DNA from: Bifidobacterium polysaccharolyticum
GTDB taxonomy: Bacteria; Actinomycetota; Actinomycetes; Actinomycetales; Bifidobacteriaceae
Length of the DNA: 64,000 nucleotides
NCBI RefSeq assembly: GCF_016101585.1
Contig: NZ_JACFQG010000002.1
Location: 62,001-126,000 of the forward strand
Reading direction: 5' to 3'
Both the position numbers and the translations under genes were made by a program. This document shows, piece by piece, positions 5,764 to 60,577 of the stretch (its first letter is position 1; every line of letters begins with the position of its first letter). The notes below the pieces were generated by a model. The model searched no databases. It saw only the letters and a program-made list of their open reading frames with translations, and was not told the origin of the DNA.

Positions 5764-7776
5764 CTACTCCAGTTCCAAGGCTCCGGTGTAGAGCTGGTAG
5801 TACTCGCCATGCTTGGCTATCAGCTCATCGTGATTGCCACGCTCGATGATTCGCCCATGGTCAAGGACCATGATCACATCAGAGTTGCGAACCGTGGAGA
5901 GCCTATGGGCAATGACGAAGACCGTCCTACCGCGCATCAGCGCGTCCATGCCCTGCTGGACCACCTCCTCGGTCCTGGTGTCGATCGAGGAAGTGGCTTC
6001 GTCCAGGATCATGGCCGGAGGATCCGCCACAGCCGCCCTGGCAATGGAGATCAGCTGACGCTGACCTTGCGACAATCCGCTTCCATCCCCCTCGAGAACG
6101 GTCTGGTAGCCCTGGGGAAGCATGCGGATAAAGCTGTCAGCGTTGGTCATTTTGGCGGCTTCGATGCACTCCTGGTCAGTGGCATCCAAACGTCCGTAGC
6201 GGATGTTGTCCAGGACTGTGCCGGTGAAGAGGTTGACGTCCTGAAGGACGATGCCCAGGGAACGGCGGAGGTCAGGCTTGCGGATGTTCCTCACATCGAT
6301 CCCGTCATAGAGGATCTGCCCCTGTTGGATGTCGTAGAAGCGGTTGATCAGGTTGGTGATCGTGGTCTTGCCAGCACCAGTGGCCCCGACCAGAGCAACC
6401 TTCTGTCCAGGCTTAGCGAACCAGGTGATGTCGTGCAGGACAGGCTTGCTCGGGTCATACCCGAAGCTGACGTCGGTGAATCGCACATCCCCTTGCAAGA
6501 GGGTGTATCGCCCATCAGGAGAGGTGATTGCCTGATCCTTGGCCTTCAGGGCCACATCTCGGGCATCGCCGGGAAGCTTCATGGCGGCCTCCAGCGAGCG
6601 CCTGCCATCGTCATCTGCCTCACGCTTCCAAGCCCAGTGCCCTGTTTCGTGGTCGACGGGGGTCATGGTCCGGCCGTCCGAGGCCAGCTCGACGCTGACC
6701 AATCTGACCGTACCCTGGTCTGATTCAACAGGCTGGTCCATCAGGTCGAAGATCCGCGAGGCTCCGGCCAAGGCCATCATGACCATGTTGAACTGCATGG
6801 AGACCTGGCCGATGGGGTTTACGAAGGAGCGGGATAGGGTCAGAAGGGAGACGATGGTTCCCAGGGTCAGCGGCCCTGCCCCGGTCAGTCCTACGTTGCC
6901 CATGCCCGCGATGCCGGCCAGCCCGCCTACGATTGCCAGAATGACATAGAGCAGGTAGCCCATGTTGCCCACGACCGGCATGGTGACATTGCCGTAGGTG
7001 TTGGCTTGGGCCGAGGCCTGGAAGAGCTCCTCATTCCGCGCTTCGAAGACCTTGGCGGTGGCATTCTCGTGGTTGAAGACCTTGATGACCTTCTGCCCGT
7101 TGACGGCCTCTTCAACGAAGGCGTTCACCTGGCCCAGATAGCGCTGCTGGTGAACGAAGTACCGGCCGCTTCGGGTGACCAGAACCCGGACCACCACAAT
7201 CAGGACCGCCGCAAAGACCAGGGTCAGGACGGTGAAGGGAATGGAGAGCCAGAGCATGGAGATCAGGGCTGCCAGGGCGGACAAAACCGAGGAGACCATC
7301 TGCGGGAAGGACTGGGAGATGGCCTGGCGGAGGGTATCCGTGTCGTTGGTGTAGCGGCTCATGGTGTCGCCGTGCTCATGGGTGTCGAAAAAGCCGATGG
7401 GCAGCTCCTGCTGGTGGGCGAACATCTGGTCGCGGATGGTTTTCAATGTGCCCTGTTCCACCTTGACAATCAGCCAGTTCCAGAACCAGGAGCAGAAGGT
7501 CCCTACCGCATAGAGGCAGCCCATCAGGATCAGGGTCCTCATCAGCGGTCCCCAGTCAGGGTTGGCGGCCCCGACCAGCGGCAGGATGTAGTGATCGATC
7601 AGTGGCTGAAGGAAGAAGGCCGATGCGGCTTGGGCCCCGGCGCTGACAATGATGCAGACTACGATCACCACCAGCTGCCAGCGGTAGGCCAGCAAGTAGC
7701 TGAAGATGCGACGGGTCGTCCCCGGCGCGGCCTTGTCCAAGCGGGGCTTGCGGTCCTTGAATGATCCGTCACTCAT
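5764..7776 (-). CDS. ABC multidrug-type exporter, half-transporter with canonical Walker B
   Basis: Membrane-spanning half plus ATPase half of a type-IV ABC exporter, 670 residues from the chosen start. It has six TM helices in the first ~330 residues, then an unusual ~90-residue linker rich in charged residues before the NBD, with Walker A GATGAGKTT. The signature is LSQGQ, a departure from LSGGQ, while Walker B keeps the catalytic glutamate (MILDEATS). I chose ATG 7776 because GAGGA lies just upstream and because the longer frame to 7899 would run deep into the preceding gene. It overlaps the upstream ABC gene by 8 bp, so the two are co-expressed and probably form a heterodimer. The substrate could be drugs, lipids or peptides. 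Confidence 0.9.
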   Translation of the reverse strand: MSDGSFKDRKPRLDKAAPGTTRRIFSYLLAYRWQLVVIVVCIIVSAGAQAASAFFLQPLIDHYILPLVGAANPDWGPLMRTLILMGCLYAVGTFCSWFWNWLIVKVEQGTLKTIRDQMFAHQQELPIGFFDTHEHGDTMSRYTNDTDTLRQAISQSFPQMVSSVLSALAALISMLWLSIPFTVLTLVFAAVLIVVVRVLVTRSGRYFVHQQRYLGQVNAFVEEAVNGQKVIKVFNHENATAKVFEARNEELFQASAQANTYGNVTMPVVGNMGYLLYVILAIVGGLAGIAGMGNVGLTGAGPLTLGTIVSLLTLSRSFVNPIGQVSMQFNMVMMALAGASRIFDLMDQPVESDQGTVRLVSVELASDGRTMTPVDHETGHWAWKREADDDGRRSLEAAMKLPGDARDVALKAKDQAITSPDGRYTLLQGDVRFTDVSFGYDPSKPVLHDITWFAKPGQKVALVGATGAGKTTITNLINRFYDIQQGQILYDGIDVRNIRKPDLRRSLGIVLQDVNLFTGTVLDNIRYGRLDATDQECIEAAKMTNADSFIRMLPQGYQTVLEGDGSGLSQGQRQLISIARAAVADPPAMILDEATSSIDTRTEEVVQQGMDALMRGRTVFVIAHRLSTVRNSDVIMVLDHGRIIERGNHDELIAKHGEYYQLYTGALELE

Positions 7777-9595
7777 GGTCCTTGTCCTCCTCGCTCTGGT
7801 TCCTGGTCTGTGATTCGTAGATGGATCGGTACTCCTGACATGTTCGCAGAAGCTCCTGGTGGGTGCCCTTGTCGAGAATCCTGCCCTCTTCCAGGACAAC
7901 GATCATGTCAGCGTCCTCCACAGAGGCCAGACGCTGGGAGATGATGATCTTGGTGGTATCGGGAATCTCCTGGCTGAAGGCCCGGCGGATCAGCTGGTCG
8001 GTCTTGGTGTCCACGGCGCTGGTTGAGTCATCCAGAATCAGGATGTCAGGTTTCTTCAGAAGGGCACGTGCTATGCACAGACGCTGTCGCTGACCACCAG
8101 AGAGGTTGGTGCCGCCCTCATCCAGGTAGGTCTGATACCCATCGGGAAACTCCCGCACGAAACCGTCAGCCTGGGCCAGAGTGCAGGCGCGCACCAGATC
8201 TTCGTCCGAAGCATCAGGATTGCCCCAGCGCAGGTTCTCGGCGATGGTCCCGGTGAAGAGGACATTCTTCTGAAGCACCATGGCCACCTGGTCGCGCAGG
8301 ACGGTCAGGTCGTACTGGCGCACATCCACCCCGCCCACCTGAAGGGACCCTTCGGTCACGTCGTAGAGACGGGGTATGAGCTGGACCAGGCTGGATTTGG
8401 AGGAGCCGGTCCCGCCCACGATGCCCAGGGTCGATCCCGAGGGAACGTCCAGATTGATATGGCTCAGAACGGGACGTTCGGACCGATCCGAGTAGCGGAA
8501 GGTCACATCCTGGAAGCTTATGGAGCCGTCGGCCACCTTCATAACCGGTTTGGCGGGATCATGCACGGTGCTGACCTCGTCCAACACCTGGCAAATGCGC
8601 TCCGCCGAGGCCTGGGAGATGACGACCATGACCACGATCATGGAGACCATGTTCATGGCCATCATGATCTGGATGGCATAGGTGACCAAGGCAGTCAGAT
8701 CGCCCGTGGTCAGCCCCAGGGCCGCATTGTTCCCGGATGCCACGATCTGGGAGGCTCCCATCCAGGATATGACCAGCAGAGAGGCGTAGATGCAGAAGTT
8801 CAACAGCGCCGGGTTCAGGCTCATGATTCTCTCGGCCTTGCAGAAGGCCCGGTAGATGGCCAGAGAAATACCGTTGAATTTGCGCTCCTCGTAGTCCTCC
8901 CGGTTGTAGGACTTGACCACTCTGATGCCCTGAAGATTCTCGTCCACCACATTGTTGAGGTGGTCGTAGGTGTGGAAGACCCGCTCAAAGATAGGGTGCA
9001 CCAGCAGGGACAGACCGATCAGCCCGAAGCCCAGGATGGGGATGGCGATCAGGAAGACCAAGGATATGGGCCTGGAGATCTTATAAGAAAAGAGCCAGGC
9101 GACGATAACCATGATCGGCGCCCTGACCCCGACCCTGATGACCATCTGATAGGCGTTCTGCAAATTGGTCACATCGGTGGTCAATCTGGTGATGATGGAA
9201 CCGGTGGAGAAGCGGTCGATGTTGGTGAAACTGAAGGACTGCACCTTGGCGAAGAGGTCGCTGCGGACATTCTTGGCCAGGCCGGAAGAGGCGATGGCCG
9301 CATACCGCCCGGACATGAACCCGGAGAAGAGGGAGACGGCCGAGCAGGCCAGCAATATCAACCCGAATTTGAAGATGGCCGGCATGGACCTCCCCGAGAC
9401 TCCTTGGTCGATCAGGGAGGCCATGATGGTCGGAATCACAATTTCAAGGACGCTCTCCAGAAAGACGAAGGCTGGAGCTAGAAAACTGGCCTTCCGGTAT
9501 TCGCGCAGTGAGCGCAGAATGGTTCGGATGGTGTGCTTCGGACGCGCTGGTTCCTGTTTATCCGATCTGACCACGGATGCCGTAGACCCCTTCAA
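7769..9595 (-). CDS. ABC multidrug-type exporter, half-transporter with degenerate Walker B
   Basis: First gene of the exporter pair, 608 residues: a TM domain (about 35-330) and an NBD with Walker A GGTGSSKSS (394-402) and canonical LSGGQ (498-502). Walker B reads ILILDD, with Asp523 where the catalytic glutamate normally sits. Paired with the LSQGQ signature of the partner subunit, this is the arrangement of heterodimeric exporters such as TM287/288 or LmrCD, in which only one of the two ATP sites hydrolyses efficiently. Translation appears to start at a TTG (9595) with GAAGAGG five bases upstream; no ATG is well placed nearby. Confidence 0.9.
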   Translation of the reverse strand: MKGSTASVVRSDKQEPARPKHTIRTILRSLREYRKASFLAPAFVFLESVLEIVIPTIMASLIDQGVSGRSMPAIFKFGLILLACSAVSLFSGFMSGRYAAIASSGLAKNVRSDLFAKVQSFSFTNIDRFSTGSIITRLTTDVTNLQNAYQMVIRVGVRAPIMVIVAWLFSYKISRPISLVFLIAIPILGFGLIGLSLLVHPIFERVFHTYDHLNNVVDENLQGIRVVKSYNREDYEERKFNGISLAIYRAFCKAERIMSLNPALLNFCIYASLLVISWMGASQIVASGNNAALGLTTGDLTALVTYAIQIMMAMNMVSMIVVMVVISQASAERICQVLDEVSTVHDPAKPVMKVADGSISFQDVTFRYSDRSERPVLSHINLDVPSGSTLGIVGGTGSSKSSLVQLIPRLYDVTEGSLQVGGVDVRQYDLTVLRDQVAMVLQKNVLFTGTIAENLRWGNPDASDEDLVRACTLAQADGFVREFPDGYQTYLDEGGTNLSGGQRQRLCIARALLKKPDILILDDSTSAVDTKTDQLIRRAFSQEIPDTTKIIISQRLASVEDADMIVVLEEGRILDKGTHQELLRTCQEYRSIYESQTRNQSEEDKDHE

Positions 9596-9741
9596 GTGGA
9601 CCTCTTCTGTTTCTATTGATTTCTCTATCTTTTACGGCCAATCACCGACATGCAATACCCCCGGAAGAGGGTCTGAATGCAACTAGGCTATCATCCTCTC
9701 CGCCAGAGTTGGGCGGACGCGCGGGGATTTCCGCCCACCAC

Positions 9742-9781
9742 AAAAAGAAGCTGTCAAGCCCCCTGGGGCCATGCAGCTTCT
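9742..9781 (-). terminator. Rho-independent terminator downstream of adk
   Basis: On the minus strand, an 8-bp stem AGAAGCTG/CAGCTTCT closes over a GC-rich inner part (GGCCCC/GGGGGC) and is followed by TTTTTG. It lies about 105 bp past the adk stop and before the ABC exporter genes, so it separates the ribosomal gene block from the exporter operon. Confidence 0.8.
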
Positions 9782-9886
9782 ATGCTTGGGTTAGTCTTAG
9801 TGGCGAGCTGTGCCAGTGTGTTCTGAACAAGGCCTTCTTACGGTTAATTCAGCTGGCGACAACCCTTTAGCCTGACAGGCTATGAA

Positions 9887-10459
9887 TTAGCGCTTGTCCA
9901 GCTGCGCGATAATCTCCTTGGATATCTGCTCGACCGCTCCCTGACCGTCCACTGCGACCAGAAGGCCACGAGACTTATAAGTGTTCAGCAGGGGTGCGGT
10001 CTCCTTGGCATAGATATCCAGACGCTTGGCGATGGCCTCGGGGGTATCGTCTGCTCGCCCCTCTTCCTTGGCTCGCTGGGCGATGCGCTGCATAAGCACG
10101 TCATGGTCGGCGTCCAAGGCCACCACAGCCGTCAGCGGAGTGTCAAGCTCTTTGAGCATCTTGTCCAGGGCCTCGACCTGGGAAGCCGAACGGGGGTAGC
10201 CGTCCAGAATCCAGCCCTGGGCGGCGTCATCCATGCCAAGACGGTCCTTGACGATCTTATTGGTCAGCTCGTCTGGAACCAGCTCACCCTTGTCGGTGTA
10301 GACCTTGGCCTGCTTGCCCAGCTCAGTTCCGTTCTTCAGGTTGTATCGGAAAATGTCGCCGGTGGAGATGGCCGGAATCCCGTAATGCTTGCTGAGCAAG
10401 GCTGCTTGCGTGCCCTTGCCAACACCTTGAGGTCCCATGATCAACAGTCGCTGTGCCAT
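9887..10459 (-). CDS. adk: Adenylate kinase
   Basis: Interconverts ATP + AMP and 2 ADP in the cytoplasm. The 190-residue short form has a P-loop GPQGVGKGT at 9-17 (Gln where many homologues have Pro), the AMP-binding stretch STGDIFR, and GYPRS. The LID is short and lacks zinc cysteines, as is normal for actinobacterial enzymes. It follows secY in the usual order, but a terminator lies between them and the next genes are an ABC exporter. The usual infA-rpmJ-rpsM-rpsK-rpoA block does not follow. It probably has its own promoter in the 168 bp after the secY terminator. Confidence 0.97.
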   Translation of the reverse strand: MAQRLLIMGPQGVGKGTQAALLSKHYGIPAISTGDIFRYNLKNGTELGKQAKVYTDKGELVPDELTNKIVKDRLGMDDAAQGWILDGYPRSASQVEALDKMLKELDTPLTAVVALDADHDVLMQRIAQRAKEEGRADDTPEAIAKRLDIYAKETAPLLNTYKSRGLLVAVDGQGAVEQISKEIIAQLDKR

Positions 10460-10614
10460 TCCCTATCCTTTGCTCGATGTTCTATGTTCTTGACTCTTTG
10501 GTTCCGGACGGTCTTAGCCGTCTTTGCCGGGCAGAACCCTCATTTACGTATGCTAGCGGCTACCCGACCCAATACAGGTTCCACTTACTGAACCCATGCA
10601 AACTGTCTTCCCGC

Positions 10615-10659
10615 GACACAAAAGAATCCGGCCCCTTGCCACCAAGGGCCAGGGCCGGA
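10615..10659 (-). terminator. Rho-independent terminator after secY
   Basis: Minus-strand stem TCCGGCCC/GGGGCCGGA around an inner CCCTTGG/CCAAGGG-type fold, followed by TTCTTTTGTG. It lies 48 bp beyond the secY stop and should end the long ribosomal transcript before adk. Confidence 0.8.
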
Positions 10660-10707
10660 CCTTCATTTGTTTTAATCTGACAGCACTTGCAGGTGCTTAA
10701 GTTAGGG

Positions 10708-12036
10708 TCAGCCTTCCTTGTGGTCGCCCTCCAGCAGGAAACCAGTGTACTGGAACTGCTCGGTCTGGGCCCTGGCCTGACGCAGGGTGTCCAGGCCGAC
10801 GCCGGCGATAATCAGGATGGTGGTGCCGCCGAAGGGCAACTTAGAGTTGATCTTCAGCAACATGATTAGCACCGTGGGTATCAGCGCCACGAAAAGCAGA
10901 TAGATGGCGCCGACTGTATTCAGCCGATTCATCACGTATGACAGGTACCGGCTGGTGGCGCGTCCGGCCCTGATGCCGGGGATGAAACCGCCGTACTCCT
11001 TCATGTTGTCGGCCGTCTCATCGGGGTTGAAGGTGATGGAAGTGTAGAAGAAGCAGAAGAAGACGATCATGACCGAGTAGAGCACGATGTACCACACCGA
11101 GGTGGTGTTGGCCATGTTGGCATCAATCCACTTGACCCAGCTCTGTTCGGGCTTGCCGAACTGGGCAATGAGGGTGGGAATAGCCAGAATGGATGAGGCG
11201 AAGATGGGAGGAATCACGCCTGACATATTGATCTTGAGTGGCAGATAGGTTGAGGATCCGCCGTACATCTTGCGGCCGATCATCCGGCGGGTGTACTGGA
11301 CGGGTATGCGGCGCTGAGCCAGCTCAACATAGTCCACCAGAATCAGAATGACCACCAAGACAGTCACAACGATGCCGAACTTGACCCAGTCGCCGTTCTT
11401 GCCGTTGGTGCCCCAGCCGATGTTCCAGAGCTGAGGCAGGAAGCCGGAGCAGATGGAGATGAAGATCAGGACGGACATGCCGTTGCCAATGCCCTTGTCA
11501 GTAATTAGCTCGGCCATCCACATGATCAGGCCTGTGCCGCCGGTCATGATCAGAACCATGACCACCAGGTTCCAGACCGAACTGTCAGGGATAACCTGCT
11601 GCTGGCATGCCCCGTTGAAGAGCGCGCCGTTGCGGGCAGTGACCAGAATAGTCGTGGACTGCAGCACCGCCAGGCCGATGGTCAGATACCTGGTGTACTC
11701 GGTCAGCTTGGCCTCGCCGGACTGACCCTCCTTGTGCAGAGCCTCAAAGCGTGGAATGACCACACGCAGCAACTGCACCACGATGGATGCGGTGATGTAG
11801 GGCATGATGCCTAGCGCGAAGATGGACAGCTGCAACAGAGCCCCGCCCGAGAACAGATTGACCAGGCCGATGAAGTCCTCATTGCCGGCTGTGGTGATGC
11901 ACTTCTGCACGGCAGGATAATCCACACCTGGGGTAGGTATGAACGACCCGATGCGATAGATGATGATGATGCCAAGAACAAAGAGGATTTTCTTCCTCAA
12001 CTCCTTGGTCTTGAAGGCCTGGATTAACGTCCTCAC
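10708..12036 (-). CDS. secY: Preprotein translocase subunit SecY
   Basis: Channel-forming subunit of the Sec translocon in the cytoplasmic membrane, partner of SecE and SecG. The 442 residues contain ten predicted TM helices, with the plug region after TM1 (SFIPTPGVDY near 31-40) and the cytoplasmic loop GIRAGRATSRY that contacts ribosomes and SecA. It stands in the conserved place after rplO, but 185 bp with a strong hairpin separate the two genes, so secY may be partly uncoupled from the ribosomal genes. Confidence 0.97.
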   Translation of the reverse strand: MRTLIQAFKTKELRKKILFVLGIIIIYRIGSFIPTPGVDYPAVQKCITTAGNEDFIGLVNLFSGGALLQLSIFALGIMPYITASIVVQLLRVVIPRFEALHKEGQSGEAKLTEYTRYLTIGLAVLQSTTILVTARNGALFNGACQQQVIPDSSVWNLVVMVLIMTGGTGLIMWMAELITDKGIGNGMSVLIFISICSGFLPQLWNIGWGTNGKNGDWVKFGIVVTVLVVILILVDYVELAQRRIPVQYTRRMIGRKMYGGSSTYLPLKINMSGVIPPIFASSILAIPTLIAQFGKPEQSWVKWIDANMANTTSVWYIVLYSVMIVFFCFFYTSITFNPDETADNMKEYGGFIPGIRAGRATSRYLSYVMNRLNTVGAIYLLFVALIPTVLIMLLKINSKLPFGGTTILIIAGVGLDTLRQARAQTEQFQYTGFLLEGDHKEG

Positions 12037-38336: not shown

Positions 38337-39737
38337 TTACTTCTTGTCAGTAATCTTGAACCCCTGTCCTTCGGCATAGGTCTTCAACGATTCTTGCCAC
38401 TTCGGGAAGACGGAAGCCAACTTCCCACCTTTCTTCATCTCCGGCACCACAATGTCCTTGAAGGAGGTGGCATACTGGGTATTGAAGGGAAGTATGGACC
38501 AATCGGTGTTGATCTTCTTGGAAGACTCCATGTATATGGCATTCACGTTCTGGTTGAAGTAGTCATTGTGCTGATTCTGGTAGGTCGCATCATCCAGATA
38601 GGCTTTGGTGGGCGAGAAGCGTATCCCGCCCTCGCTGTTTCCGGCCTTGATTGCAGCGGGATCGGAACAGATCCAGTTCAGGAAGGCCACGGCAGCCGCC
38701 CTCTTGTCCTTAGGGCAGGATGTTGTCACGGCAAAGAGTGAACCACCAATCGTGGCGGATTTGAAGTCGGCGGCTGAGGAACCCCAAGCAGGAGGCAGGG
38801 TGATTTCCACTTTCCCCTTCATGGACTGCTGTTGCTTCTCATAGGTGGAGCTGCGCCAGGCCCCATCGATCTTGGTGACCCACCGGCCCTCTGCGAACCC
38901 CCTGTTGTACTCATCGGTCTTGGATGCAACGGGCTCAAGAACGTCCTCGTCGATCAGCCTTTGAATAAAGTCGACCACCTCTTTGACCTTCTTGTTGGTC
39001 ATATCCAGGGTCACGTTCTCCAGACCTTTGACTTGCCACATGGGAGCTTTGGCCTGCCGCATAATGGCGGCCATATAACGGACATCAGCCGTATCTATAT
39101 AGCCCATGTATCTAGTGGGGTCGGCCTTGTGCAGTGCGATACCGGCTTGTTCGAACTCGTCCCAGGTTTTGGGAATGGCGATTCCATGCTGGTCGAGCAG
39201 ATCGCGACGGGAGTACATAACAATCGGCCCCTGATCCATAGGGAATCCGTAGAGTCCTCCCGCCACGTGAACATCAGCCCAGGCAGCCTTGGTATAACGG
39301 CTTCCCATCTGCTGTTCAATCGACTTGTCATTGATATTGAGCAGGGCCTTGGTCGTGGCGTACTGCGGCAGATAGTCATACTCCAACATGGTCATATCGG
39401 GAATGTCTTTGTTCGCCTTGATGACATTGGAGAACTTCGTGTAATGATCCGCAGCGGCACCTGTAGCCGTCACCTTGACCTTGATATGTGGATACTTGCT
39501 CTGGAAAGCGTCAATGGTGCTTTTGAGGCTGTCAGCCTGCCAGGTCCACAGCGTCAGCTCGACATCCTTATCCGATTTCAATGCTGCAGCCGCCTGCGAC
39601 GCGGTAACGCCACCCTCAGCGCCGGCAGACCGGTTCCCGCCATTATTTGAACCGGACCCGCAAGCACTCAATCCTGCAATCATGAAGAAACCGACGCACG
39701 CGCACACCACCTTGTGCCCTTTGGAATTCCAACTCAT
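38337..39737 (-). CDS. Sugar ABC transporter substrate-binding lipoprotein
   Basis: Cluster-B extracellular solute-binding protein, 466 residues from ATG 39737 (GAAAGGCGG upstream). It has a signal peptide with lipobox LSAC and lipidated Cys26. The body is the two-lobed fold of family 1 (FPMDQGPIVMYSRRDLLD, DEFEQAGIALHKADP). First gene of the importer-GH43-uxaA operon. The neighbours suggest xylo-oligosaccharides or uronic-acid-substituted xylo-oligosaccharides as ligands; this is inference. Confidence 0.93.
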   Translation of the reverse strand: MSWNSKGHKVVCACVGFFMIAGLSACGSGSNNGGNRSAGAEGGVTASQAAAALKSDKDVELTLWTWQADSLKSTIDAFQSKYPHIKVKVTATGAAADHYTKFSNVIKANKDIPDMTMLEYDYLPQYATTKALLNINDKSIEQQMGSRYTKAAWADVHVAGGLYGFPMDQGPIVMYSRRDLLDQHGIAIPKTWDEFEQAGIALHKADPTRYMGYIDTADVRYMAAIMRQAKAPMWQVKGLENVTLDMTNKKVKEVVDFIQRLIDEDVLEPVASKTDEYNRGFAEGRWVTKIDGAWRSSTYEKQQQSMKGKVEITLPPAWGSSAADFKSATIGGSLFAVTTSCPKDKRAAAVAFLNWICSDPAAIKAGNSEGGIRFSPTKAYLDDATYQNQHNDYFNQNVNAIYMESSKKINTDWSILPFNTQYATSFKDIVVPEMKKGGKLASVFPKWQESLKTYAEGQGFKITDKK

Positions 39738-52832: not shown

Positions 52833-53072
52833 GCAATTCACTGTATCATCGTCCCCTTATGAGGGCTTCTCCCGGGCAGACGCAATGCCGGGACTGCCTA
52901 CCGCCCTTGGCAACAACCAATCAGCCATGATCAGAGTGAAGCAAGACCGCATCCAGACGGCTGCAAAGTCCGGTCTGACCCACCCCTATCAGGTTTTCCT
53001 ATAGCTTTCGCAAGACCCGCGCAGGGCCAAGGGACGATTAGCGGCGATAGATATTACCTATATGCCGGGTCG

Positions 53073-53101
53073 TTGACCGGCCTGCTACCTGGGGGTTTTA
53101 T
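53073..53101 (+). promoter_or_regulatory. Promoter of the URO-D/LIV/MetY cassette
   Basis: TTGACC (53073-53078), 17-bp spacer, TTTTAT (53096-53101), predicting transcription from about 53,108. The remaining upstream sequence to murB (52,833-53,072) shows no gene or clear element. Confidence 0.6.
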
Positions 53102-53107
53102 GTGACA

Positions 53108-53219
53108 AGAGCTTTGGAAAGGGGAATCTCCAAAGCCCGGTTTCCGGACGAGGAGCACCGGGAATCCGTGGACACCTGATCGGGCGTCCACAGGACACGC
53201 ACCAGGAAATGAGCATGCA
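53108..53219 (+). promoter_or_regulatory. Structured 5' leader RNA with three hairpins
   Basis: Nearly the whole predicted leader folds into consecutive stems: P1 GCTTTGGA/TCCAAAGC (53111-53136), P2 CCCGGT/ACCGGG (53136-53162) and P3 GTGGAC/GTCCAC (53168-53191). The P1 loop GGAA could pair with TTCC in the P2 loop. CCTG in the P3 loop (53175-53178) could pair with CAGG at 53203-53206, which overlaps the AGGA ribosome-binding sequence. The layout suggests translational control by a riboswitch-like RNA. It does not match the SAM, cobalamin or T-box patterns I know. Confidence 0.5.
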
Positions 53220-54284
53220 ATGACAGAAGACAGACGAACCCAGTTCCACCAGATAGCCCATGGCCAGGGGAACCAAGCCTGGCTGACCTCGGCCTGGCAG
53301 CACCACATCGGACACGAATACGGTGCCGAGAATTTTGCCGCAGCCACCTTGGACTTCGTCCGCAAGTGGGATTGGGACTGGGTCAAGATCAATCCGAGGG
53401 CCATATATTATGCCGAGGTCTGGGACGCAGTCTACGACAAGGACCACTATGATTGGCTGGTCCCGCACACCGTCCGTGCAGCCATCCAGGATGCAGGGGA
53501 CATCGCCCGCATCGACTACCGCGACCCCGAAACCAATAAGATCCTCCAAGAGCAGATCCAGGCCGCCAGGACCATCCGAGACGGCCTGGAGGACCGAGCA
53601 GTTATCGACACTGTCTTCTCCCCGCTCTCGGTCCTCCTTCTGCTGGCTGATCTTCCCCTCTATCCCGATGAGCAGGGCTCTGTGCAAGAGGACGACAGGG
53701 ATCTGAACAGACAGACGCTGATCTTCGACCAGCCCGAGGCGGCCAAGTCAGCGCTGGACAACATCGCCCGGACCCTTGCCGACTACGCAACCCTGCTGGT
53801 CAGCCCCAAGGAGCAAGGCGGGGCAGGCCTGGACGGCATCTTCTTCGCCGAAACGGGCCTGGCCAGCCATGGCTACTTCAACCAGCCGCAACTGGAGGAA
53901 TGGGCCAAGCCCTATGACCGGATCGTGATCCGGGCAGTCAGACAGGCCAATCCGGAAGCCCTGGTCCTGGTGCATACCTGCCGGGAGGATGCGCATCCTG
54001 AAGAATTCACCGATCTGAATCCTGATTTTCTTCATTGGGATCAGTTCCGCCCAGGCAATCCTGAAATCAGCACCGACTTTCCTGCTGTACCCGTGGGCGG
54101 AGCCGATTTCGAACTCTTCAACCCAGGCGGCGACGTGGACCAGATCCGCAAGGAATTGGATCAGACCACCCAGGCCCGTCAAGGCCGTCCCTTCCTCCTG
54201 GCGCCCTCATGCACCATCCCGACGCCCGCCGACGAGGAGGCCCTGCGCGTTCTGAGCGGAACCCGGGCCCCCAAGGAACTCTGA
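53220..54284 (+). CDS. URO-D superfamily protein, probable zinc-dependent methyltransferase
   Basis: A 354-residue TIM-barrel protein of the uroporphyrinogen decarboxylase superfamily. It is unlikely to be a haem-pathway HemE, because the porphyrinogen-binding N-terminal motif is absent and no haem genes are near. It keeps the zinc signature of MtaA/CmuA-type methyltransferases: H252-x-C254 (VHTC) and C331 (PSCTIPTP). Those enzymes move methyl groups from a corrinoid to a thiol. With metY downstream, a plausible acceptor is homocysteine, but this is inference. First gene after the structured leader. Confidence 0.75.
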   Translation: MTEDRRTQFHQIAHGQGNQAWLTSAWQHHIGHEYGAENFAAATLDFVRKWDWDWVKINPRAIYYAEVWDAVYDKDHYDWLVPHTVRAAIQDAGDIARIDYRDPETNKILQEQIQAARTIRDGLEDRAVIDTVFSPLSVLLLLADLPLYPDEQGSVQEDDRDLNRQTLIFDQPEAAKSALDNIARTLADYATLLVSPKEQGGAGLDGIFFAETGLASHGYFNQPQLEEWAKPYDRIVIRAVRQANPEALVLVHTCREDAHPEEFTDLNPDFLHWDQFRPGNPEISTDFPAVPVGGADFELFNPGGDVDQIRKELDQTTQARQGRPFLLAPSCTIPTPADEEALRVLSGTRAPKEL

Positions 54285-54335
54285 AACCACAAACAATCCC
54301 ACCGACATCCACCGCCAAACCCCAAGGGAGACATC

Positions 54336-55526
54336 ATGGCCATCACCTCAAAGCAGCACCATCAGCATCACGGCACCATCAGGGCAATGGTTGCCCTCAT
54401 GATCACCATGGCCATGGCCGGGCCGCTGTCGGCCTGCGGATTGGGGGGCGACAAGGGCTCCTCCGCAGGATCGTCGGACCATGTGACCATCGCTGCCATT
54501 TACCCTAAGACCGGTCTCTACGCCGAGTACGGAAAGATGTTCCAGCAGGGCTTCGACCTGGCCAAGGACCAGATCAACAAGAAGGGCGGAATACAGGGCA
54601 AACGCCTGGACATCGATTACTACGACACTCAATCAGATGCCAAGCAGGATGCCGCTGTCGCCCCCAAAATCGCTGCCGACAAGTCGGTCATCGCCGTTGT
54701 GGGCGACTACTCTTCGCCAGCATCATCGGCTGCATCGCCCATCTTCCAGCAGGCCGGACTGGTCCATTACGGCTTCAATAACTCCTCCCCGGTGTTCACC
54801 AAATCCGGCGATCATGTCTGGACGCCCCAGATATCAGATAAGACCTACCAGGAAGTCAACGCCGAGGCGATATCCAAACGAGCGAAGAAGGTCTCCGTCG
54901 TCTATCTGGAAAACGACTGGGGGAAGGAATCATTCCAACACTTCAAAGACGCCGCTGACAAACAAGGGGTGCAGATCATTTACCAGTCCTCCTACCTGCC
55001 TGATTCCACTGATCTGACGCCAATACTGATTCCGGCCAAGAACGCTGGCCCTGATGCTGTGGTGGACATCGGCTACGGACCAGACGGGGCATTGGTTCTC
55101 AATACCCTCCGCGACAAGCTGGACTACAAGGGACCCTTCTTCGGAGGCCAGGAGACCAAGGAGTTCCTCTCCTTGACGGGGGCAAACTCCCAAGGAACCA
55201 TCATCACCGGGACTTTCTCGGCAACCGGCACCAAGGATCCCAAGGCCAAGGCCTTCGTCAAGAGCTTCGAGGACCGGTACCACATCGTCCCCGGCAACTT
55301 CGAAGTCACGGCCTACCAGGCCATCATGGACCTGGCCCACGCGGGTGAAAAGACCAGCCCCACCAGGCAGGGCATTCAGGAGGCCCTGACAAAAGTCAAG
55401 GACTTCCCGCTCTATCAAGGCCAGGGCGGCACCTTCAAGTTCAATGCCAAAACCAGACGGGCAGATGTGATCCAACCCATCCTCCTTCAGGTGGATCAGG
55501 GCAAATTCAAACAGATCGAGGAGTAA
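54336..55526 (+). CDS. LIV-type ABC transporter substrate-binding lipoprotein
   Basis: A 396-residue branched-chain-amino-acid-type binding protein (Peripla_BP_6 family). Its signal peptide ends in a PLSAC lipobox (Cys34) and is preceded by an odd His-rich stretch (QHHQHH at 7-12). The mature fold begins VTIAAIYPKTGLYAEYGK and has the typical GDYSSPASSAASPIF ligand-binding region. The family also binds amides, urea and other small polar ligands, so the name does not fix the substrate. It lies 51 bp after the URO-D gene and 9 bp before the permease. Confidence 0.9.
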   Translation: MAITSKQHHQHHGTIRAMVALMITMAMAGPLSACGLGGDKGSSAGSSDHVTIAAIYPKTGLYAEYGKMFQQGFDLAKDQINKKGGIQGKRLDIDYYDTQSDAKQDAAVAPKIAADKSVIAVVGDYSSPASSAASPIFQQAGLVHYGFNNSSPVFTKSGDHVWTPQISDKTYQEVNAEAISKRAKKVSVVYLENDWGKESFQHFKDAADKQGVQIIYQSSYLPDSTDLTPILIPAKNAGPDAVVDIGYGPDGALVLNTLRDKLDYKGPFFGGQETKEFLSLTGANSQGTIITGTFSATGTKDPKAKAFVKSFEDRYHIVPGNFEVTAYQAIMDLAHAGEKTSPTRQGIQEALTKVKDFPLYQGQGGTFKFNAKTRRADVIQPILLQVDQGKFKQIEE

Positions 55527-55535
55527 GCAGCGATC

Positions 55536-57356
55536 ATGGTCGAGACGCTCTTTTCCGGACTCATCCACGGCGGCGTATATGCTCTGGCCGCCGTGGGGAT
55601 GTCCCTGGTCTTCGGAGTGACCAATGTGGCCAACTTCGCACAAGGATCCCTGGTGGCAGTTGGCATGATGACGGCCTGGTGGGTAGGCTCCTCCCTGGGT
55701 TGGGGACTCATCCCCACCATTCTGGCCGTCGTTCTGGTCACAGGCCTTGTCGGCCTGGTCACCAACCTCCTGGTCATCACTCCGCTGGAAGGTCGGCAAC
55801 CGATTGCCGCTCTCTTGGGAACTGTGGGCGTAGGGCAGGTTCTGGATAACGGGATGCAGCTGATCTTCGGCTCCCAGACCAGGCCCTTTCCCCAGCTGCT
55901 GCCCACCCACAACCTGCATGCGCTGGGCATCAGCTTCGGCACTTCCGACTTGGTCATGGGTCTTGTCGCTCTGGCCAGCATGGTTGCGCTCTGGGCCTTC
56001 TTGACATACGGCAGGACCGGCCAGGCCATCAGGGCCACCTCCCAGGATTCCCAGGCTGCATTGCAAATGGGAGTGCCTGTCACCTCCATTCGCACCATAG
56101 CTTTCGTCATCGGGTCGATTCTGGCGGGCATCGCAGGAATTTTCATCGGCCTGTTCAAGACGAACATCAACCCCATGGACGGCAGCACCATCGGCATGAC
56201 AGCATTCGTGGCCGCTGCCATCGGCGGACTGGGCTCCATCCCCGGAGCCATCATCGGGGGCCTGGTGCTGGGTTTGGCTGAAGCCGTCGGCGTCGGGCTC
56301 TTCGGCGATGGTGTGCACGACCTGATAACCTTCGGCACCCTTCTGCTGGTTCTGATCCTCAAGCCCTCAGGATTCCTGGGCCGCAAGGCAGACATGGGCA
56401 AGGAGCCCATGACCGGAACCCTCCCGGAAGCCGCCAGACCCATCCGACTGCCGCTTTGGGCCAACCTCAGCCTTGCAGCAGCCGCTCTGGCCACTCCCTT
56501 CATTTTCTCCGACCACCTGGCCGGCATCGGGACCCAGGTGACCATTTATGCCATTGCTGCAGTGGGTCTGACGCTGATCTCGGGCTCGGCCGGTCAGACC
56601 ATCCTAGGACTGGCAGGACCTGTGGCCGTGGGAGCTTATGCCTCGGCCCTGCTGACCATGCGCATGCACTGGCCCTTCACCCTCTCCCTCCTAGCAGCGG
56701 CCATCATTGCCGCGCTTGCTGCATCCCTGCTGACATTCCCAGTATGGAAGCTCAGTGGCCACTATGTGGCTATCGCCACCATAGGAGTGGGAGCAGTCAT
56801 GGTCGCCATCATCCGCATCTGGGAGCCTCTGACAAGAGGTTCCCTGGGTCTGCAGGGCATTCCTTTGCCGACCTTCCTGGGCAAGCCGCTCTACACCCAG
56901 CAGATGCAGTACTTGCTGGATCTGGTCATCCTTCTTCTGGTTCTTGCAGTGACCTCCCGGATTAGGTTCTCACATCTGGGCCACGTCTTCGAAGCCATCG
57001 GCGAGGACGGACAAGCGGCCTGGTCCCTGGGGATCAGGACAGGGGCCTACAAGGCGCTGGCCTACGCCCTGGCATGCGGGTCGGCAGGTATCGCAGGAGC
57101 CCTGCTGGCACACCAGTACACCTATATCGACCCGACCCTCTTCAATCCGACCATGTCGACCCTGATCCTGACCATCATCGTCCTGGGTGGGATGAAGTCC
57201 CCGACCGGAGCCGTGATCGGCTCCCTGATCCTGGTAGGCGCCCCTGAACTGCTGCGCATCCTGCCCGAGGTGAGAATCATGGCCTACGGACTCGTCCTGA
57301 TCATCTTCATCATCTGCAGACCACAAGGCCTGTTCTCAACCAAAAGGAGGGCATGA
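55536..57356 (+). CDS. LivH-LivM fused ABC permease
   Basis: Both inner-membrane permeases of a LIV-type importer in one 606-residue chain. Residues 1-~290 are LivH-like (GVYALAAVGMSLVFGVTNVANFAQG, AFVAAAIGGLGSIPGA). After a short charged linker (about 285-305), residues ~310-606 are LivM-like (GLTLISGSAGQTILGLAGPVAVGAYASALL, LGGMKSPTGAVIGS). The sequence reads through without a frame break, so the fusion is real in this assembly. The stop overlaps the next ATG by 4 bp. Confidence 0.92.
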   Translation: MVETLFSGLIHGGVYALAAVGMSLVFGVTNVANFAQGSLVAVGMMTAWWVGSSLGWGLIPTILAVVLVTGLVGLVTNLLVITPLEGRQPIAALLGTVGVGQVLDNGMQLIFGSQTRPFPQLLPTHNLHALGISFGTSDLVMGLVALASMVALWAFLTYGRTGQAIRATSQDSQAALQMGVPVTSIRTIAFVIGSILAGIAGIFIGLFKTNINPMDGSTIGMTAFVAAAIGGLGSIPGAIIGGLVLGLAEAVGVGLFGDGVHDLITFGTLLLVLILKPSGFLGRKADMGKEPMTGTLPEAARPIRLPLWANLSLAAAALATPFIFSDHLAGIGTQVTIYAIAAVGLTLISGSAGQTILGLAGPVAVGAYASALLTMRMHWPFTLSLLAAAIIAALAASLLTFPVWKLSGHYVAIATIGVGAVMVAIIRIWEPLTRGSLGLQGIPLPTFLGKPLYTQQMQYLLDLVILLLVLAVTSRIRFSHLGHVFEAIGEDGQAAWSLGIRTGAYKALAYALACGSAGIAGALLAHQYTYIDPTLFNPTMSTLILTIIVLGGMKSPTGAVIGSLILVGAPELLRILPEVRIMAYGLVLIIFIICRPQGLFSTKRRA

Positions 57357-59143
57357 TGACAGGCAGTCAGCATAGTCCCGAACCCGCACGCGACAATCCC
57401 GATCAACCCCTGCTCAGCGTGCGCGATCTGAGCAAGAGCTTCCAGGGACTGCAGGCGGTGGCCGACGCCAACATGGATCTGGCATCCGGCCAGGTGATAG
57501 GCATTATCGGCCCCAACGGATCAGGAAAGTCCACGACCATCAACCTGATCTGCGGCTTTCTCAAGCCCGACTCGGGCCAGATCAGCCTGAGGGGACGCAC
57601 CGTGACCGGCCTGCCCGCTACGGACATGGCCGAGCAGGGGGTGTCCCGCACCTTCCAGAACGGCAGGGTCTTCCCGGCCATGAGCGTTGAGGAGAACGTG
57701 GCCGTAGGATTCCATAGGCGCCTGGAAGCCCGCAGGCCCTTTCGCCGTCTGGAGAGGTGGCCCATCCTGCGATGGATCCCCCTGCTGACGCAGACCTGGC
57801 TGACGCTGGTGCCCGGTCCCGCCTGCGGGAGGGAGGCGGTCGCCGAACGCAAGGCCGTCCAGTCCGAGATCGACAGATTCAGCGAGCGCCTGGAGGAGCA
57901 TCGCACCCAGGCCGCCTACACCCTGTCCTACGCCAACAGGCGCCGCACCGAAATCGCCAGAGCCCACGTCAGTTCCCCCGACATCCTGGTCTTGGACGAA
58001 CCCACCGCAGGGATGAACCAGTCGGAAACGGCCGAGGTGCTGCAACAGCTCCTGGAGCTCAAGGCCCAGGGTCAGACCATGCTTCTGGTCGAGCACAAGA
58101 TCGACCTGATCGAAGCGCTTTGCGACCAGGTCATCGCCATGGACGGCGGCCGGATCATCGCCTCCGGACTTCCCAGGCAGGTCAGTGCCGACCCCCGGGT
58201 CATCACCGCATACCTGGGCGACCGCAGACCCCGCAACGATGCCCCCATGAACGGGCAGGCGGATGTTCTGGCCCGGCAGAACGCCCTGGCTCCGGTCACC
58301 GCTGCGGAACCGATTGATGGCCAGGATCCCGACAGCACGGGAACCAGGCTGAGAGCCAAGGCTGAGGCCTCTGATGACGACGAGGGGAAGCCGACCGCCG
58401 AGGGGGAGCGAACATTGCTCTCCCTGGATGGCGTCGATGTGAGCTATGGCCCGGTCAAGGCCCTGGACCATGTCAGTCTTCGCATTCCCCAAGGCGGCAT
58501 CGTCTCGCTTCTGGGTGGAAACGCTTCAGGCAAGTCCACAACCATGAAGACCATCCTGGGCCTGCTGGCTCCAAAGGAGGGGACCATCCGTTTGGATGGA
58601 CAGGAAATAACCCACACCCCCACCAAGGATCGGGTCCGTTCCGGAATCGCCTCAGTTCCGGAGGCAAGAAGGGTCTTCGCGGCCATGAGCGTGGAGGAGA
58701 ACCTGCGTATGGGCGCCTACACCCAAAGGGAGCGCAATCAGATCGAGCAGGATCTGGATACCATATATGAGCGCTTCCCCCGCCTGGCCGAACGCCGCGG
58801 GCAGCAGGCCGGCACCCTTTCAGGAGGCGAGCAGCAGATGCTGGCCTTCGGCAGGGCCCTGATGAGCCATCCCCGGCTGATATGCATGGACGAGCCGACC
58901 ATGGGCCTATCGCCCAAGCTGGTCGACCAGCTGCTTGAGCAGATCGCCTCCCTCCGCGACCAGCTGGGCATCTCCATCCTTTTGGTCGAGCAGCAGGCCG
59001 AGCTGGCCCTGTCCATCGCCGACTACGGGTACGTGCTGCAGAACGGCCTGATCCGTCTGGAGGGACCAGCCCGACAGCTCTTGAATGATGAACGTGTCCG
59101 CCAGGCATACCTGGGCAAGGCAACCTCCGATAGCGGGCGATAA
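57353..59143 (+). CDS. LivG-LivF fused ABC ATPase
   Basis: Two ATPase domains in one 596-residue chain. The LivG-like half (about 18-290) has Walker A GPNGSGKST, a weak signature LSYANRR, and Walker B ILVLDEPTAG. After a ~65-residue acidic linker, the LivF-like half (about 355-596) has GGNASGKST, LSGGEQQ and CMDEPTMGL. Together with the fused permease, one ATPase chain and one permease chain would make the whole core complex. Confidence 0.92.
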   Translation: MMTGSQHSPEPARDNPDQPLLSVRDLSKSFQGLQAVADANMDLASGQVIGIIGPNGSGKSTTINLICGFLKPDSGQISLRGRTVTGLPATDMAEQGVSRTFQNGRVFPAMSVEENVAVGFHRRLEARRPFRRLERWPILRWIPLLTQTWLTLVPGPACGREAVAERKAVQSEIDRFSERLEEHRTQAAYTLSYANRRRTEIARAHVSSPDILVLDEPTAGMNQSETAEVLQQLLELKAQGQTMLLVEHKIDLIEALCDQVIAMDGGRIIASGLPRQVSADPRVITAYLGDRRPRNDAPMNGQADVLARQNALAPVTAAEPIDGQDPDSTGTRLRAKAEASDDDEGKPTAEGERTLLSLDGVDVSYGPVKALDHVSLRIPQGGIVSLLGGNASGKSTTMKTILGLLAPKEGTIRLDGQEITHTPTKDRVRSGIASVPEARRVFAAMSVEENLRMGAYTQRERNQIEQDLDTIYERFPRLAERRGQQAGTLSGGEQQMLAFGRALMSHPRLICMDEPTMGLSPKLVDQLLEQIASLRDQLGISILLVEQQAELALSIADYGYVLQNGLIRLEGPARQLLNDERVRQAYLGKATSDSGR

Positions 59144-59245
59144 GGAACACCTATGGGAGCAACCTTGCCTGAGGCTCTGAAAGAAGATTCGATGGTGGGC
59201 TAGCAAGGGATTCCCGACCGGACACAAGCAGAGGGGCACAACCGT

Positions 59246-60577
59246 ATGAGCAAAGGATTCGCAACAAGAGCCGTCCATGACGGCTATGACTGTCAAAGCC
59301 AGGGCGGGGGCGCAGCCAGCGTCCCCATCTACCAGTCGGCCGCCTTTGACATGGTCACCGCCGACCGGGGAGATGCCCTGGCCGCCGGCGAAATTCAAGG
59401 ATTCTCATACTCCCGCCTGGCCAACCCCACGGTCAAGGTCCTGGAGGACCGCCTGGCCAGTCTGGAGGGGGGCAAGGGGGCTGTAGCCATGGCCTCGGGG
59501 ATGGCCGCCGTGTCGTCCGCCCTCATGTGCGCAGCCGAAGGCGGCGGGAGACTAATTTCCCCGGTCGATCTTTATGGGACCTCGGTGGATGCCATGAAGA
59601 CCTTCTTCCCCAACTTTGGCATCGAAACGGATTTTGTGGATGACATCAACGACCTTGACGAGGTGGAATCCCTGATTCAAGACAACACCAGGGCCATCTT
59701 CGCTGAGTCCGTGGCCAATCCGTCCACAGCCATAGCCGACATCCCCGGCCTGGCCGACCTGGCCCACCAGCATGGACTGGCCCTGATCATCGACAATACG
59801 GTGCCCACGCCCTACCTGCTCAACCCTATCGACTTCGGCGCCGACATCGTCGTCCACTCGACCACCAAGGGGATCAGCGGCCACGGCAACGCATTGGGCG
59901 GGGTCATCGTGGATGCGGGGCGATTCGACTGGGGCAACGGCCGCTTCCCGCAGATGAGCCAGCCCGAACTGATCATCAGCGACGAACGACACGGGTCCAT
60001 GGTCAGCTTTCTGGATGCCTTCGGCAAGATGGCCTTCCTCCACAGGGTCCATACCAAATACCTGCACACCTTCGGGGCGGTCATGAGTCCCTTCACCGCC
60101 TACCTGCAACTGACCGGCCTTGAGACCCTGGCCCAGCGGATCGCCACCGAGGTCAAGACGGCAGCGATCCTGGCCCGCCACCTGCTGACCATTCCCCAGG
60201 TGGAACAGGTCAACTACTCGGGCATTCCCGAGGGTCGGTACCAGGGCGATGCGGACCAGCAGAACCGCCTGGCATCAACCTTGCTGCCCAAGGGCGTCGG
60301 CACGATCCTCTCCTTCAAGGTCAAAGGGGGCTATGAGCAGGTGAAGCGCATCGTGGACTCGGTGCATCTCATGAGCTACATGCCCAACATCGGCGACTGT
60401 CGCACCCTGATTGTGGACCCGGCCAGGATCACCCACAGGGAGGTTCCGGGCCCCTACCGTCTCAGTGCTGGTGTGGGCGACGACCTAATTCGAATCTCCG
60501 TAGGCCTGGAGAACCCGGACGACCTGATCGCCGACCTGGATCAGGCCTTTGCAGCCGCCTATCCGAAGACGCTCTAG
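59246..60577 (+). CDS. O-acetylhomoserine sulfhydrylase-type PLP enzyme (MetY-like)
   Basis: Cys/Met-metabolism PLP enzyme, 443 residues. VPIYQSAAFDMV, SRLANPTVKVLEDRLASLEGG and the PLP lysine in HSTTKGISGHGNALGG are clear. The length and the inserted segment SFLDAFGKMAFLHRVHTKYLHTFGAVMSPF favour MetY (O-acetylhomoserine + sulfide to homocysteine) over cystathionine gamma-synthase. A methionine gamma-lyase activity cannot be excluded. It starts 102 bp after the ATPase gene and likely belongs to the same transcription unit. Confidence 0.88.
   Translation: MSKGFATRAVHDGYDCQSQGGGAASVPIYQSAAFDMVTADRGDALAAGEIQGFSYSRLANPTVKVLEDRLASLEGGKGAVAMASGMAAVSSALMCAAEGGGRLISPVDLYGTSVDAMKTFFPNFGIETDFVDDINDLDEVESLIQDNTRAIFAESVANPSTAIADIPGLADLAHQHGLALIIDNTVPTPYLLNPIDFGADIVVHSTTKGISGHGNALGGVIVDAGRFDWGNGRFPQMSQPELIISDERHGSMVSFLDAFGKMAFLHRVHTKYLHTFGAVMSPFTAYLQLTGLETLAQRIATEVKTAAILARHLLTIPQVEQVNYSGIPEGRYQGDADQQNRLASTLLPKGVGTILSFKVKGGYEQVKRIVDSVHLMSYMPNIGDCRTLIVDPARITHREVPGPYRLSAGVGDDLIRISVGLENPDDLIADLDQAFAAAYPKTL

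Follow-up and report, generated by a model that had tools for sequence, protein, structure and literature searches.

Described methyltransferases of the URO-D superfamily are mostly linked to corrinoids, as far as the available part of PMC10418091 goes. Among them, MtaA, MtbA and MtsA and the type 1 mlp clusters combine this superfamily with His-Cys-Cys zinc ligands and a methyl-sulfur tie (PMC10418091, same part). The available sections of PMC539065 place the zinc ligands of MetE at the end of strand 5 (His), in the next loop (Cys), at the end of strand 6 (Glu) and after strand 8 (Cys), and those of PMC7857596 give an Asp in place of the Glu in MesB, one of the folate-independent core methionine synthases MesA-D. 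Here, we describe a locus of Bifidobacterium polysaccharolyticum (RefSeq assembly GCF_016101585.1, contig NZ_JACFQG010000002.1, positions 62,001 to 126,000; the whole 64-kb stretch that was analysed is called the window) in which a URO-D-family zinc enzyme, the URO-D protein, is encoded together with a LIV-type importer. The URO-D gene and the importer genes are a recurring four-gene unit. This is likely a salvage unit that is tied to a methionine regulon and has a corrinoid-free zinc alkyltransferase as its enzyme. The source genome belongs to the Bifidobacterium asteroides group, and the URO-D protein is 92-93% identical in B. asteroides, B. mizhiense, B. apousia and another Bifidobacterium.

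The locus shares the superfamily, the zinc ligands and the methyl-sulfur tie with MtaA, MtbA, MtsA and the type 1 mlp clusters but, set against the available account of them, encodes neither a corrinoid protein nor several Mlps, and has a dedicated importer and a methionine operator; its URO-D protein shows 16% identity to the methyltransferase structure 4ay8 in the structural alignment. A type 1 mlp cluster is recognized by a corrinoid protein, a reductive activase and at least two Mlps; no B12-binding domain exceeds the cut-off in the 43 genomes searched, and no search for the activase was made. Like MetE and MesA-D, the URO-D protein combines an H-x-C motif with an acid that follows strand 6, here the Asp known from MesB, and with a Cys that follows strand 8; unlike them, as the available sections of PMC7857596 and PMC539065 describe them, it belongs to PF01208 rather than PF01717, has no folate-binding half, and, by rough mapping, does not conserve the strand-4 acid of MetE. 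Homocysteine methyltransferases of PF02574 (betaine/S-methylmethionine type) would do the same job, making methionine from a methylated nutrient and homocysteine, but they are another protein family and occur in only 3 of the 43 genomes tested, the source genome not among them. No description of such a unit was found in the open-licence PMC literature.

The original prediction, made from the sequence alone, proposed five same-strand genes behind one promoter and a structured leader, with a methyl group passed from an imported compound to homocysteine; its observation is partly confirmed and its interpretation partly supported. The five genes at 53220-60577 are borne out by matches to PF01208, Peripla_BP_6, BPD_transp_2 (twice), ABC_tran (twice) and PF01053. 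The features of the locus are as follows.

52986-53004, strand. : operator-like 19-bp palindrome, copy 1 (16.5 bits, rank 2 in the 64-kb window)
53045-53063, strand. : operator-like 19-bp palindrome, copy 2 (14.8 bits, rank 4), 59 bp downstream of copy 1
53064-53219, + strand: 5' untranslated stretch (z -2.3; RNA structure not supported)
53220-54284, + strand: URO-D-family zinc enzyme, putative alkyl (methyl) transferase, 354 amino acids (PF01208; invariant zinc ligands; model nearest 4ay8)
54336-55526, + strand: LIV-type substrate-binding protein (PF13458, Peripla_BP_6; nearest solved chains LIV/HAAT)
55536-57356, + strand: fused LivH-LivM permease (two BPD_transp_2 stretches; LivH- and LivM-like halves)
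57353-59143, + strand: fused LivG-LivF ATPase (two ABC_tran stretches; LivG and LivF models among the best)
59138-59156, strand. : relic of a MetY operator, overlapping the LivGF stop (17.3 bits, rank 1 in the 64-kb window)
59246-60577, + strand: divergent MetY paralogue (MetY2), a pyridoxal phosphate enzyme (PF01053; TIGR01326, 437.9 bits; clade apart from canonical MetY)

A single promoter for all five genes is not confirmed: the first four are tightly packed (a 51-bp gap, a 9-bp gap and then a 4-bp overlap), but MetY2 follows LivGF after a gap of 102 bp whose start overlaps the relic of MetY's own ancestral operator.

The URO-D protein scores 45.9 bits against PF01208 (Pfam curated cut-off, 23.9), the sole Pfam family matched, and has no NCBIfam match at all, HemE models included. 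The H-x-C...C zinc motif first seen in the single sequence is present throughout: all of the 49 relatives compared (49 of 49) have H252, C254, D274 and C331. Also invariant in all 49 are H28, E33, W52, K56, R60, E66, Y77, D205, D233, W273 and N280. In the structure predicted from 12 sequences (mean pLDDT 85.2, pTM 0.90; four other models were lower, 69-77), the zinc ligands are placed as in MetE, with H252 near the end of strand 248-253, D274 just past strand 270-272 and C331 past strand 325-327. Its best Foldseek match is 4ay8, a Methanosarcina mazei methyltransferase that we take to be MtaA (E 1.5e-11, TM 0.70), followed by UROD structures and then by MetE. The H-x-C after strand 5 and the Cys after strand 8 that characterize the MetE/MtaA type are found in H252, C254 and C331, and the acidic fourth ligand of MetE and MesB at the end of strand 6 is found in D274, as judged from sequence and secondary structure. 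We conclude that the URO-D protein has a predicted MetE/MtaA-type zinc site with H252, C254, D274 and C331 as its ligands. The invariant E66, after strand 2, is by rough mapping a candidate for the first acid of the MetE/Mes homocysteine site.

We surveyed 189 Bifidobacteriaceae genomes and 295 other genomes of the phylum. The URO-D protein was detected in 42 of the 189, as a fragment only in G020 and split into two frames in G144. The PF01208 family occurs in 43 of the 189, 41 of them among the 42, and G060 and G089 carry only a second, more distant subfamily. Elsewhere in the phylum, 4 of 295 genomes have relatives at E 1e-30, which form a distant subfamily, and no MetY or LIV gene was recognized beside these four when open reading frames were read by eye, with no family search made. 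URO-D was not found on viral contigs, and plasmids gave one match at 24.9% identity. Neighbourhoods were compared in 50 rows, which are flanks from 39 of the 42 genomes (G008, G108 and G160 were left out; some of the 39 are represented by named contigs with identical coordinates), with a broken copy counted as two rows and the fragment as one. The arrangement recurs in other genomes: the LIV genes adjoin URO-D in 34 of the 50 rows, and in 31 rows MetY2 lies within 9 kb of it. Nearby genes include one for a cystathionine-lyase-like protein in 20 rows, and either MetY2 or this lyase in 35; the remaining neighbours include SDR (19 rows), ProC-like (11), M20 (6), PatB-like (5), Dpp-type importer (5) and VOC (3) genes. 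When 46 URO-D proteins were placed in a tree (after removal of three near-copies, and with importer labels assigned by the analyst), the LIV-linked ones clustered: the labels require 6 changes, compared with a mean of 12.9 after shuffling, and 0 of 500 shuffles gave so low a number. Switches to other importer types occur in places along the tree.

The putative homocysteine-forming enzyme is MetY-like by its PF01053 match, but it is a divergent paralogue. Its TIGR01326 score of 437.9 bits is under the NCBI cut-off for O-acetylhomoserine sulfhydrylase (495.1), and the canonical MetY encoded elsewhere in the same genome scores 602.2 bits and falls in a separate clade. A profile of the cassette-type MetY (E 1e-130) detected MetY2 in 106 of the 189 genomes, comprising 37 of 42 with URO-D versus 69 of 147 without it (Fisher test, P = 1.0e-6, shared ancestry uncorrected). 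Once the ten genomes scoring only below 600 bits are removed, the counts become 35 of 42 versus 61 of 147 (P = 1.3e-6). In the sister genomes G132, G128, G139 and G145, which have no URO-D, MurB directly adjoins MetY2, and the sequence upstream of MetY2 at these empty sites can be aligned with that of the window, starting at the LivGF stop. In one part of the clade, the URO-D and LIV unit therefore separates MurB from MetY2. Because the four sister genomes have MurB and MetY2 side by side without the unit, MetY2 is independent of it. We rejected MetY as an obligate member of the unit, given its presence in 106 of 189 genomes and its solitary occurrence at the four empty sites.

The MetY2 promoters of the empty sites contain a 19-bp palindrome, about CTATAAG-N5-CYTATAG. 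A matrix trained solely on these four promoters of URO-D-less genomes was scanned over 350 bp upstream plus 30, with a threshold of 10 bits. Sites at or above the threshold precede 30 of 44 URO-D genes versus 37 of 421 unlabelled neighbour genes (odds ratio 22, P = 2e-18, relatedness uncorrected); the URO-D set excludes four nearly identical regions and one whose usable upstream sequence was too short or absent, and some of the 421 neighbours have divergent promoters in common with URO-D. The four best sites of the window are at 59138, 52986, 53045 and 39236; the one at 39236 falls within the reading frame for an extracellular binding protein and is taken as chance. The conserved features upstream of the URO-D gene are the two palindromic operator-like sites, of which copy 2 (53045-53063) is conserved across an alignment of 8 upstream regions, more weakly in locus L036. 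In sister genome G132, a perfect site (L155, 1501-1519) stands 8 bp before an open frame whose best family is MetN (360 bits, under the model cut-off of 499.7). This same site lies between the metN-like gene and a divergent gene that is purT-like by eye. Because the operator is common to URO-D, MetY2 and the metN-like gene, the unit appears to be under a methionine-type operator and tied to a methionine regulon, and a role in methionine metabolism is likely. The streptococcal CmhR/MtaR operator, as given in the available part of PMC5359408, is likewise an AT-rich palindrome with TATA arms (TATAGTTTSAAACTATA) before methionine genes, whereas the bifidobacterial site is 19 bp long and has other arms.

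The leader, which had been thought structured, did not hold up as such. Its predicted fold is only a little better than those of shuffled sequences (z -2.3, equalled by 3 of 200 shuffles), and a known riboswitch is unsupported, no match to an Rfam family attaining the gathering score. Across 7 close sequences, which are too alike to test well, changes on both sides of a pair occur in 0 of the 46 predicted pairs. A sigma-70 scan returned 2 sites against 1.8 expected, both on the minus strand.

The importer is of the LIV type (HAAT), with a binding protein and LivH, LivM, LivG and LivF parts together. Its proteins score under the NCBI cut-offs for the E. coli-type Liv models, so the LIV type does not imply the substrate. 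In the binding protein, the segments aligned with the ligand regions of LIV/HAAT proteins (GDY-S, GFNNS, GYGPDG and GGQ) are fixed in 36 or 37 of 37 homologues, and the last Gln aligns with a Glu in 4n0q and an Asp in 4gnr. If these are the pocket positions, as presumed by comparison with LIV proteins, they hint at a ligand that may be polar and amino-acid-like, not branched-chain.

In keeping with the original prediction, the cassette lacks a gene for a corrinoid protein, and in the whole source genome no such protein exceeds the Pfam cut-off. More broadly, no B12-binding domain exceeds that cut-off in 43 genomes (the 42 with URO-D and G007), 15 of which have weak matches below it, and 12 of 14 control genomes were positive. 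A corrinoid carrier is therefore very unlikely, and any transfer would be direct. The question of the methyl carrier, first left open, is settled to this extent.

Replacement of MetE, which had been part of the proposed route, fared less well. The source genome encodes MetE (PF01717 in an 815-amino-acid open frame, C5:218758) with MetF alongside (C5:219773), and MetF is present in 39 of the 42 URO-D genomes. Across the 189 genomes, URO-D is if anything rarer without full MetE (3 of 30) than with it (39 of 159; Fisher test, P = 0.095), and we rejected it as a general MetE replacement, there being no tie to MetE loss. Only three Alloscardovia genomes (G005, G006 and G009) fit the expected co-occurrence, being the only ones to keep URO-D after loss of MetE and MetF; they are also without PF02574, yet keep canonical MetY; in G006, MetY2 is fragmented. 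A further PF01717 protein, about 400 amino acids long, is encoded in each of the five Alloscardovia genomes (for example, L093 of G009, 1489-2685); it is far from MetE, with weak matches only, and could be a separate core-type methionine synthase.

We propose that the unit imports an alkylated amino-acid-like compound and that its alkyl group is then transferred, without corrinoid or folate, to a thiol, probably homocysteine, which would give methionine; we put the probability of this reading at roughly 45%. The four-gene unit would be expressed from the methionine-type operator, before an independently occurring MetY paralogue. The importer would take in a small, probably amino-acid-like compound whose S or N bears a methyl or other alkyl group. 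In the URO-D protein, the zinc would activate a thiolate, most likely homocysteine from the MetY enzymes, and the thiolate would accept the alkyl group directly, with neither corrinoid nor folate involved. The reaction would yield methionine in parallel with the MetE/MetF route at times of methionine shortage. It is possible, if doubtful, that the URO-D protein represents a methionine synthase of a new class: a zinc enzyme with a single barrel that would methylate homocysteine straight from an imported nutrient, independently of folate and corrinoid, with an importer of its own and under the control of methionine, and that could take the place of MetE in some Alloscardovia.

Several observations weigh against the proposed transfer to homocysteine. 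MetE and MetF are present in the source genome, MetY2 occurs in 69 genomes without URO-D, and G042 and G058, which encode neither MetE nor URO-D, retain a PF01053 enzyme of full length, counter to simple substitution. The structural alignment with 4ay8 shows only 16% identity (Foldseek). MetE binds the amino group of homocysteine with a second acid, located where strand 4 ends, for which the relatives show no conserved equivalent; at position 211, the corresponding site by rough mapping, V occurs 25 times, E 10, I 6 and L 4, besides others. No operator-like site was found upstream of 14 of the 44 URO-D genes. Moreover, a strict pattern (at most 1 mismatch) showed no excess over its reversed control (1 versus 2 in G000, the source genome, 2 versus 1 in G133, 2 versus 4 in G132 and 0 versus 6 in G143), so the pattern alone proves nothing and the matrix enrichment carries the argument. 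The lyase, M20 and PatB-like neighbours fit salvage of sulfur equally well.

Such sulfur salvage would have an imported thioether or S-substituted cysteine dealkylated by the URO-D protein and the freed thiol or sulfide joined to O-acetylhomoserine by MetY2, the gain being sulfur and not methyl. The neighbours of URO-D speak for it (the lyase-like gene in 20 of 50 rows, MetY2 or the lyase in 35, M20 in 6 and PatB-like in 5), as do polar-amino-acid-type importers at some URO-D loci, the wider distribution of MetY2 than of URO-D, and the MetE homocysteine contact that is not conserved. Corrinoid-free thioether cleavage, however, is chemically hard, and the B. asteroides cassette has no lyase gene. 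We consider sulfur salvage the main rival, somewhat less likely than the transfer to homocysteine, and count in its favour that the available part of PMC11540073 reports bifidobacteria not to use sulfur directly.

Alternatively, the LIV genes could import methionine or an ordinary amino acid under methionine control, with the URO-D protein unrelated or minor in the operon. The importer type and the operator before the metN-like gene would agree with this, but the LIV genes stay beside URO-D in 34 of 50 rows, URO-D occurs with other importer types as well, its zinc site is invariant, and the presumed pocket of the binding protein is unlike that of LIV proteins, which makes the explanation distinctly improbable. 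More remote again is a corrinoid-dependent methyltransferase (MtaA- or Mlp-like) whose corrinoid protein is encoded elsewhere: the closest fold, 4ay8 at TM 0.70, is a methanogen methyltransferase, but the 43 genomes have no B12-binding domain over the cut-off although 12 of 14 controls are positive. Finally, we give practically no credence to a uroporphyrinogen decarboxylase (HemE), the identity that the original prediction named as speaking against it. The protein has the Pfam URO-D domain, yet the evidence is against HemE: the zinc ligands are present, NCBIfam is silent, and PF01208 occurs in only 43 of the 189 family genomes, 41 of which already carry the URO-D protein. HemE was rejected on these grounds.

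Individual URO-D loci also differ in composition. In L076 (G144, 8001-9061), the URO-D gene is split in two overlapping frames while the importer and MetY2 seem intact, representing a natural mutant or an assembly error. The second, distant PF01208 subfamily is found in L074 (G080, 307-1350) and also in G060, G089, G125, G152 and G160, and has its own H-x-C and late Cys; in G080 its gene is clustered with a Dpp-type importer, an M20-like gene, the first URO-D and MetY2. A pyrroline-5-carboxylate-reductase-like gene stands by URO-D in 11 of 50 rows (L046, L055, L065, L067, L068, L069 and L078 among the loci), several times divergent from it and with an operator-like site common to both. In L042 (Bifidobacterium psychraerophilum, 6867-8900), a GNAT-like domain is fused to a glycolate-oxidase-like (GlcD) protein, and this fusion sits between a URO-D paralogue and MetY2, with a Dpp-type importer alongside. 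In L073 (G111, 8995-11540), URO-D occurs without LIV genes, and an aldehyde-dehydrogenase-like gene (betaine-aldehyde type by eye) lies just upstream on the same strand.

These observations suggest that bee-gut bifidobacteria and some of their relatives salvage a nutrient for its methyl groups or its sulfur in an undescribed way. Because the four-gene unit is defined, natural empty sites exist and the operator motif is available, the question of its substrate is directly testable. If our proposal is true, bifidobacteria of bee guts and other hosts would make methionine from a dietary or host-derived methylated or S-alkyl compound via a corrinoid-free zinc enzyme.

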